From Pseudoxanthomonas winnipegensis (GTDB lineage Bacteria > Pseudomonadota > Gammaproteobacteria > Xanthomonadales > Xanthomonadaceae): a stretch of 64,000 bases of DNA. The stretch is taken from positions 1 to 64,000 of the forward strand of contig NZ_SHMH01000007.1 of assembly GCF_004283755.1 (NCBI RefSeq), in the 5' to 3' direction. The translations under genes and the position numbers were made by a program. Below are positions 60,668 through 62,696 of the stretch, one piece after another. How positions within the stretch are numbered: the first letter of the stretch is position 1; each line of letters begins with the position of its first letter. The notes beneath the pieces were generated by a model that saw only the letters and a program-made list of their open reading frames with translations, was not told the DNA's origin and ran no database searches.

Positions 60668-60769
60668 GGGAGAACTCCTGAAGGAACCTGACGTGGGGTA
60701 AGTGGCGCTTGTAGTTGGATCCCCGGCCACGGAGGGCCAGGCTTTTCGCAGAGGGACCTGCACACGCAT

Positions 60770-60924
60770 AAAAAAACCCGCATCGGCCGATGCGGGTTTT
60801 CTGGTTCCTCAGGCGTTCGTCGTTGTTGCTTTGCCTAGTCGCAGACCCGCATCGGTCGCGCACGATTATTCGCGCGCAGATTGCGGTTGTTGTTGTTCGC
60901 GACGTTGGCCAGGACGGACGGCAT
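60770..60924 (-). promoter_or_regulatory. Candidate asparagine-responsive transcription attenuator of asnB
   Basis: In minus-strand order: a leader ORF (60924-60835) with clustered Asn codons; segment 1 (60886-60879), which can pair with segment 2 (60853-60847), reinforced by the inner stem 60876-60870 with 60865-60859; segment 2 (60856-60845, ACCGATGCGGGT), which can instead pair over 11 bases with segment 3 (within 60800-60787, ACCCGCATCGG); and segment 3, which otherwise forms a perfect 14-base palindrome with segment 4 (60786-60773) followed by seven Us. Stalling at codons 10-15 would cover segment 1, free segment 2 and prevent the terminator. asnB starts 103 bases beyond. This is a textbook leader-peptide layout, read by eye without energy calculation. 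Confidence 0.75.
60835..60924 (-). CDS. Asparagine-rich leader peptide of asnB
   Basis: A 29-codon frame from ATG at 60924 to TAG at 60835, beginning MPSVLANVANNNNRNLRANN and ending in RARPMRVCD. Eight of 29 codons are Asn: one at position 7, four in a row at 10-13, then 15, 19 and 20. Upstream, TTGCGC and TTAACG are spaced 17 bases apart and would place the transcript start at or next to the ATG, so translation may be leaderless; no strong ribosome-binding site is seen. Its role would be to sense Asn-tRNA supply. Confidence 0.7.
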   Translation of the reverse strand: MPSVLANVANNNNRNLRANNRARPMRVCD

Positions 60925-61050
60925 GGGGCGACGTTAACCCGGCTTCCGCGCTCGGCGCAACCCTTTCAGCCGCAACGAAACTGGCCTCCGAGAGACGCCG
61001 ATGGCGCGCGGCCGACGCGTCGCCCACACCGCCCGGGGCGGCATGGCCGG

Positions 61051-62239: not shown

Positions 62240-62340
62240 GTAGAGCGGAGCTTGCTCCGCTGCTCTTGGGTCAGGATCCCAGGGAAAGTTCCAGCGACCA
62301 GATCAGCGGGAAAGCCCTAGCGGAGCAAGCTCCGCTCTAC
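62240..62340. repeat. Inverted pair of GTAG-type REP hairpins touching the arsC-family stop codon
   Basis: GTAG-AGCGGAGC-TT-GCTCCGCT at 62240-62261 and the mirror copy AGCGGAGC-AA-GCTCCGCT-CTAC at 62319-62340. Same sequence class as 18146-18218. The second copy's GTAG contains the TAG stop codon of the ArsC/Spx-family gene. The pair fills the gap to dapE. Confidence 0.85.
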
Positions 62341-62696
62341 GCGATCCCGAAGCGTGCCTTGAAGCCGTTGTCGGAGAAGCCCTGGCTCAGCGTGCCATCG
62401 TCGGTGATCACCACCGGCCGCCGGATCAGCTGCGGATGCTCGCGCAGCAGCAGCTTCCATTCGGCCTCGCTGCCGGGCGACTTGCGGTTCTCGGGCAGCT
62501 GCCGCCAGGTGGTCGAGGACTTGTTGACCAGCGCGTCGAAGCCACCGGCCTTGCCCGCCCATTCCACCAGCGTCTCGGGCGCAGGCTTGTGCTCGCGATA
62601 GTCGACGAAGGTGTAGGCCACCCCGAAGCGATCCAGCCACTTGCTGGCCTTCTTGCAGGTGTCGCAGTTCTTCAGTCCGTAGAGTGTCGTGGTCAT
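62337..62696 (-). CDS. ArsC/Spx-family thioredoxin-like protein
   Basis: A 119-residue protein, LYGLKNCDTCKKASKWLDR with a CxxC pair (positions 11-14), then FVDYREHKPAPETL, VNKSSTTWRQLPE, and RRPVVITDDGTLSQGFSD. The Arg before Pro in RRP matches ArsC-like cis-Pro sites. It could be a glutaredoxin-linked reductase or a Spx-like regulator; true arsenate reduction is doubtful because no ars genes are nearby. It sits upstream of dapE. Its TAG stop is the TAG of a REP element. Confidence 0.88.
   Translation of the reverse strand: MTTTLYGLKNCDTCKKASKWLDRFGVAYTFVDYREHKPAPETLVEWAGKAGGFDALVNKSSTTWRQLPENRKSPGSEAEWKLLLREHPQLIRRPVVITDDGTLSQGFSDNGFKARFGIA

Follow-up and report, generated by a model that had tools for sequence, protein, structure and literature searches.

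The DNA analysed here, hereafter the window, is a stretch of 64,000 nucleotides from Pseudoxanthomonas winnipegensis that carries asnB on its minus strand. The asnB product scored 872 bits against NF006949 (cut-off 499) and 433 bits against TIGR01536 (cut-off 267.1); judged by these family matches, asnB makes the amino acid whose codons fill the leader in front of it. The gene upstream of this leader, on the same strand, encodes an M20-family peptidase and is called dapE here after the initial annotation of this DNA. Upstream of dapE, at 62240-62345 of the window, a REP-like inverted pair was seen by eye, made of facing copies of GTAGAGCGGAGCTTGCTCCGCT.

The leader ORF (60924-60835, minus strand) translates as MPSVLANVANNNNRNLRANNRARPMRVCD. 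The initial annotation had described it as a 29-codon frame with eight Asn codons, four of them consecutive (codons 10-13), and its coordinates proved correct, the frame being read on the minus strand. Among the 246 window ORFs of 15-45 aa, it is the sole one with more than four Asn or with NNN. Across the 4.49-Mb genome to which the window belongs, the pattern (AAY)x4 occurred in the asnB leader and in one other place only; it revealed no further Asn leader besides that of asnB, and none was seen before asnS in this genome. The other place (G000:C12, L264 near 1500) consists of simple repeats with AAC/GTT runs and is apparently intergenic. None of the Pfam or NCBIfam families covers the window's leader.

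Downstream of the leader, the palindrome AAAACCCGCATCGGCCGATGCGGGTTTT occupies 60773-60800, and a run of seven T lies at 60770-60776 on the minus strand. Its description as a perfect 14+14 base stem holds for the DNA and not for the RNA, in which a loop is needed and the stem folds with a GGCC loop. The asnB ATG (60667) stands 102 bases past the T-run and is preceded by a Shine-Dalgarno-like AGGAG at 60675-60679. A simple terminator scan of the window did not list the hairpin at 60773-60800, and an Rfam isrK match at 60771-60877 (19.4 of 50 bits, E 0.72) was discarded as chance. Within segment 2, positions 60854-60845 (CGATGCGGGT) pair with the terminator 5' arm at 60797-60788, as had been claimed, and this pairing is exclusive with the terminator. 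The competing upstream pairing of segments 1 and 2 is part of the MFE structure of the entire leader (-61.7 kcal/mol, as good in 3 of 200 dinucleotide shuffles).

Table 1. Features of the asnB upstream region in the window
Feature	Position	Strand	Details
Predicted promoter	60925..60960	-	TTGCGC (60960-60955), 18-nt spacer, TAACGT (60936-60931), 6 nt to ATG
Leader peptide ORF	60835..60924	-	29 codons + TAG; 8 Asn codons (7, 10-13, 15, 19, 20)
Segment 1 (CCGCAATC)	60879..60886	-	Over codons 13-16; partner is segment 2
Inner stem of 1:2 (GCGCGCG / CGTGCGC)	60857..60880	-	Loop holds Asn codons 19-20
Segment 2 (ACCGATGCGGGT)	60845..60856	-	Codons 23-27; putative antiterminator 5' strand
Segment 3 (ACCCGCATCG)	60788..60797	-	Terminator 5' arm and putative antiterminator 3' strand
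Segment 4 (terminator 3' arm) and seven-T tract	60770..60785	-	
asnB, glutamine-hydrolysing asparagine synthase B, 562 aa	58979..60667	-	NF006949, TIGR01536

Distribution and composition of the leader

DNA matching the leader and terminator was present in 37 of the 38 genomes of the genus, and all 30 genus loci that were read, the window included, have an Asn-rich ORF ahead of asnB, containing 5-9 Asn. A covariance model omitting the main Asn run (R1), searched through the family at E 0.01, matched 275 of 395 genomes and 37 of 54 genera, some of the weak matches being other elements. When 18 R1-matched genomes were re-examined, an ilvC leader and ordinary terminators were among the matches, and both matches read in genome G098 lay elsewhere than at asnB. 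The weak matches L099, L103, L105, L106 and L109-L111 were rejected, having no asnB start and being ordinary terminators by eye, as was L088, which is the opposite strand of an ilvC-leader match.

At the level of the order, AsnB was detected at E 1e-100 in 90 of 151 genomes. Among the asnB loci read upstream, the Asn-rich leader was found at 23 of 24 in the window's family, at 19 of 20 in the family f12 (Rhodanobacteraceae, by reading of named relatives) and at all three in a third family, f2; the two asnB loci lacking it in the first two families are L160 and L159. In families f4, f5, f7, f9 and f10, where AsnB is 60-69% identical, no Asn-run leader was recognised by eye except possibly at L148, a reading that covered 38 of 43 places, all but G427 and four in f9. 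A class sample of 274 genomes held AsnB at E 1e-120 in four, one of which lies outside the order and has no such leader.

Among the best 80 of 574 relatives, 37 have an AsnB of at least 74% identity, a set that includes Pseudoxanthomonas, Xanthomonas, Stenotrophomonas, Luteimonas, Lysobacter, Thermomonas, Rhodanobacter, Dyella, Fulvimonas, Arenimonas, a Frateuria MAG and others. An Asn-rich leader was found by reading in 34 of these 37 and by a strict automatic rule in 31; the three exceptions (L194, L199 and L215) are all labelled as outside the order. Of the same 80, those at 60-64% identity (Alteromonadales, Vibrionales and others) gave 3 of 43 by the strict rule, and these three were not taken as attenuators.

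Three observations concern single loci. At L148 (genome G467, family f7), a distant asnB is preceded by a 22-codon ORF containing INTTNNR, by a TTGACA element and by a strong terminator, possibly an independent Asn attenuator whose 5' UTR is of the ordinary kind; none of the 19 other f7 loci read shows a leader of this type. L250, upstream of 1201 in a MAG labelled Rubrivirga, has a short ORF with NLTNANRN followed by a strong terminator and then asnB, possibly a distant case of an Asn leader. Two near-identical asnB attenuators (L082 and L100) were seen on two contigs of one draft genome (G066), a duplication that perhaps reflects a strain mixture.

In much of the window's family the leader reads NNNNRNNLRANNRARPMR. 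Rhodanobacter has NNNNRANNNANRWRARA, other f12 genomes have NNNNANNNTRIHGWAGV, and Lysobacter has NNNNRNNASLPRAGD. Leaders were called as the shortest ORF with the most Asn, a rule that makes the leaders of Lysobacter and Rhodanobacteraceae too short, since an in-frame ATG is often found there about 120 nt before the leader stop. Asn is the commonest residue across leaders (646 residues, 20%). Its codons are AAC in 340 cases and AAT in 306, compared to 10 occurrences of AAA and AAG combined, which means that the third base changes almost only synonymously. The peptide diverges between relatives except at Asn, and its sequences indicate that it is constrained mainly there.

Promoter spacing and co-evolving stems

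Before the leader ATG, the genus shares the pattern TTGCxx, 17-18 nt, TANNNT, then 6-7 nt to the ATG. In its strict form the promoter pattern fits 51 of 99 distinct leaders, compared to 0.5% after base shuffling, and TTG(C/T) stands 35-38 nt 5' of an in-frame start in 98 of the 99, compared to 37 of 783 other ATG or GTG codons; the sole leader without it at this spacing, L203, was cut off by the 400-nt extract used. A generic promoter scan of the window listed no promoter, because the conserved -10 element (TANNNT) is far from TATAAT. The predicted promoter thus rests on fixed spacing across species, and given this spacing transcription would be expected to start at the leader ATG or no more than about two bases from it, so that the leader mRNA is probably leaderless. 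The spacing, as predicted, leaves little room for a Shine-Dalgarno site before the leader; in 15 of 98 leaders, GGAG, GAGG or AGGA occurs no more than 20 nt from the start, and such a site may play a role at some of them.

The end of the leader and the terminator arm form matched pairs that differ between groups: CGATGCGGGT with ACCCGCATCG in the window's group, GGCGGGCC with GGCCCGCC in Rhodanobacter, and CGCGGGC with GCCCGCG in Lysobacter. Over 97 distinct loci, the duplex of segment 2 with its own arm has a mean of -20.4 kcal/mol, compared to -17.1 (sd 0.33) when arms were reshuffled, and none of 5000 reshufflings reached the own-duplex energy, a test that kinship inflates. The preference for the own arm is clear in two big arm groups (44 and 31 loci); in the groups with arms CCCGCGC and CCCGCAC (10 and 9 loci), as well as at three single loci, the best mean partner was the arm of another group. 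At L131 and L200, CGG to CAG in the leader (Arg to Gln) accompanies CCCGC to CCTGC in the arm (C to T), probably as one event; the antiterminator pair is kept and the terminator pair becomes G-U.

Covariation was assessed in a structural alignment of 59 rows (A4), three of them from the opposite strand, which was fitted to stems 1:2 and 3:4 and not to 2:3. For 1:2 and 3:4 together, 15 pairs showed two-sided change, compared to a shuffled mean of 4.6 (0 of 500 shuffles), and 43 two-sided cells compared to 7.1, in an alignment that leans to both stems. Helix 1 (segments 1:2), to which the alignment was fitted, had 94.9% of cells paired and two-sided change in 4 of 5 pairs, the inner stem of 1:2 (helix 2) 90.1% and 5 of 9 pairs, and the terminator 3:4 (helix 3) 98.8% and 6 of 11 pairs. 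For 2:3, which was not fitted, 88.9% of cells were paired, compared to 27-45% when slid, and there were 10 two-sided cells compared to a shuffled mean of 3.8 (0 of 500). These changes are confined to 2 of 10 pairs, a number reached by 413 of 500 shuffles, and further pair types were reached by 491 of 500. Within the genus alone, 2:3 showed no two-sided change, there being too little variation. An anchored count of 2:3 pairing picked the best register at each locus and leans towards pairing. Covariation of stems 1:2, 2:3 and 3:4, which the initial annotation had proposed to look for, was found for all three in the family-wide alignment, the count for 1:2 covering the window's family and not the second family, Rhodanobacteraceae. 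By these comparisons, the putative antiterminator 2:3 is conserved and exclusive with the terminator.

Folding, proposed mechanism and alternatives

In the folding analysis a ribosome was mimicked by masking about 30 nt of leader RNA. Before segment 4 is present, 2:3 (9 pairs) forms in the window's leader at all eight Asn stalls and is absent with the ribosome at the stop codon; without a ribosome, 2:3 forms and 1:2 does not. Over 98 loci, at least six pairs between arm and leader were found in the mid-Asn stall before segment 4 at 92, and with the ribosome at the stop at 43, the window having 6 by that looser count. In the full-length RNA at equilibrium, the terminator is kept in 80 of 98 Asn-stall folds, and in the window in seven of the eight Asn-stall states, all but Asn7; without translation, the full leader is most stable when stem 1:2 and the terminator are both formed. 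Folding under competing constraints, a check put forward with the initial annotation, bears out the formation of 2:3 at Asn stalls before segment 4; once segment 4 exists, the terminator wins in most of these folds. Since equilibrium folding mostly favours the terminator, the switch would have to be kinetic and depend on co-transcriptional timing, which, according to the accessible text of PMC1183508, kinetic models of attenuation also use.

The Asn-rich leader, the terminator and the stems 1:2, 2:3 and 3:4 support the trp/his/leu-type attenuation layout that had been suggested for this locus. We consider, with a probability of roughly nine in ten, that they form a ribosome-mediated transcription attenuator by which asnB follows the supply of Asn-tRNA(Asn). 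The same genome carries asnS, above its cut-off, and for this reason the signal is taken to be tRNA charged from free Asn. Transcription would start at or next to the leader ATG, and a ribosome would translate the Asn-rich peptide behind RNA polymerase. With ample Asn, the ribosome would reach the stop codon and cover segment 2, which lies about 8-17 nt upstream of it; segment 3 would then pair with segment 4 and transcription would end before asnB. With scarce Asn-tRNA, the ribosome would stall on the Asn codons and break or prevent 1:2, and the freed segment 2 would take segment 3 before segment 4 emerges, allowing the polymerase to read into asnB. In vivo, asnB would thus be predicted to respond to asparagine starvation.

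A wider version, drawn by analogy with what has been reported for rnTrpL/peTrpL of S. meliloti, is unlikely: an Asn attenuator that is ancient, leaderless and spread through the order, and whose termination product, a small leaderless mRNA or sRNA, also acts in trans, so that Asn would set asnB together with other targets. Less probable still is that the upstream ORF tunes asnB mainly via Rho-dependent termination or translation and that the hairpin terminates partially and to a fixed degree, whatever the Asn supply. The dominance of the terminator at equilibrium in most states would fit such an arrangement; however, a fixed terminator has no need of a 2:3 pairing that is kept and co-evolves with the terminator arm, and the Asn specificity would be left unexplained.

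We regard it as highly improbable that the leader senses another signal, such as a general ribosome slowdown or the supply of Arg, with the Asn codons being incidental. Ala (575 residues) and Arg (507) are indeed common in leaders too, but the controlled gene makes Asn, Asn runs are unusual in this GC-rich genome, and they persist while nearby codons for Arg, Pro, Met and Trp differ from clade to clade.

The hairpin could also be only the terminator of the dapE transcript, with the Asn-rich ORF as a chance frame, given that dapE lies upstream on the same strand in the window and the palindrome could end it; this is scarcely credible, as the leader is still present at 45 of the 48 loci where dapE does not adjoin asnB (it does at 46 of 94, and at three of the 48 the upstream DNA is shorter than 900 bases), the Asn codons of the ORF stay in place as its other residues vary, and the promoter element stands at fixed spacing between dapE and the leader. 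Both the Asn-rich ORF and the hairpin were found at 102 of 105 loci, which were hand-chosen, many for having shown a leader or an RNA-model match, and the other three have no Asn-rich ORF. A hairpin was counted here from six pairs upwards in a permissive search, a stricter finder having missed several, and some loci of Rhodanobacteraceae and Lysobacter have a weak T-tract. A close asnB with a kept terminator and a lost Asn leader, which the initial annotation had named as evidence to the contrary, was not seen among the 105 chosen loci.

Relation to known systems

If the proposed attenuator is real, asparagine would be added to the amino acids that ribosome-mediated attenuators are known to sense, among them tryptophan, histidine and others. 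It would also explain the control of asparagine synthesis in much of the order, including Xanthomonas, Stenotrophomonas, Lysobacter and Rhodanobacter. The leaderless design would raise the question of how ribosome and polymerase stay synchronised when initiation is leaderless, and the rewired pairs of leader and terminator would offer a natural experiment on the evolution of such switches.

The earlier suggestion that the system may be undescribed agrees with the literature searched on Asn attenuation, leader peptides and leaderless starts, in which no asparagine attenuator was found; it is tempered by a possible earlier prediction in the most relevant attenuator surveys, such as Vitreschak 2004 and Lopatovskaya 2010. 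Asparagine terms led to no attenuator in the accessible parts of PMC2965389, PMC3771888, PMC4833913, PMC8632094, PMC1262725 and PMC1183508, and AsnB2 (XCV1533) appears in the accessible part of PMC3771888 only as a gene tested by qRT-PCR, while the one occurrence of 'asn' in PMC2965389 is apparently part of an author's name. The mechanism as such is known; we could not find its specificity, target and start design described in this literature. In the window and six relatives, no Rfam family exceeded its gathering threshold, the relatives giving only sub-threshold matches to Thr_leader (25 of 55 bits, L203, opposite strand) and Leu_leader (23 of 50 bits, L204). The T-box covariance model had no match up to E = 1 in the same sequences.

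In Firmicutes, uncharged tRNA(Asn) is also the signal for the T-box leaders of asparagine genes, which bind it directly, with no leader peptide involved. At three loci of the window's family (L090, L093 and L108), the leader of an ilvC-like gene has the same architecture and a similar terminator and differs in its branched-chain codons and in the gene it precedes. These leaders, at about 1501-1620, were matched by R1 and are rich in Leu, Val and Ile (LVLVLIT...), the gene being named by eye. Outside this group, an attenuator of Sinorhizobium meliloti, a member of the Alphaproteobacteria, senses Trp where the asnB leader would sense Asn. Its trpL transcript has been reported, in the accessible part of PMC7298713, to have the ATG of its leader ORF as the 5' end and may act as a leaderless mRNA, which would provide a precedent for a leaderless attenuator mRNA. 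Like the amino-acid attenuators of E. coli and Salmonella listed in the accessible part of PMC1183508, the asnB leader combines a peptide rich in codons for the product amino acid, exclusive stems and an intrinsic terminator before the structural gene; unlike them, it uses Asn codons, stands before asnB and has a spacing that leaves little Shine-Dalgarno room.
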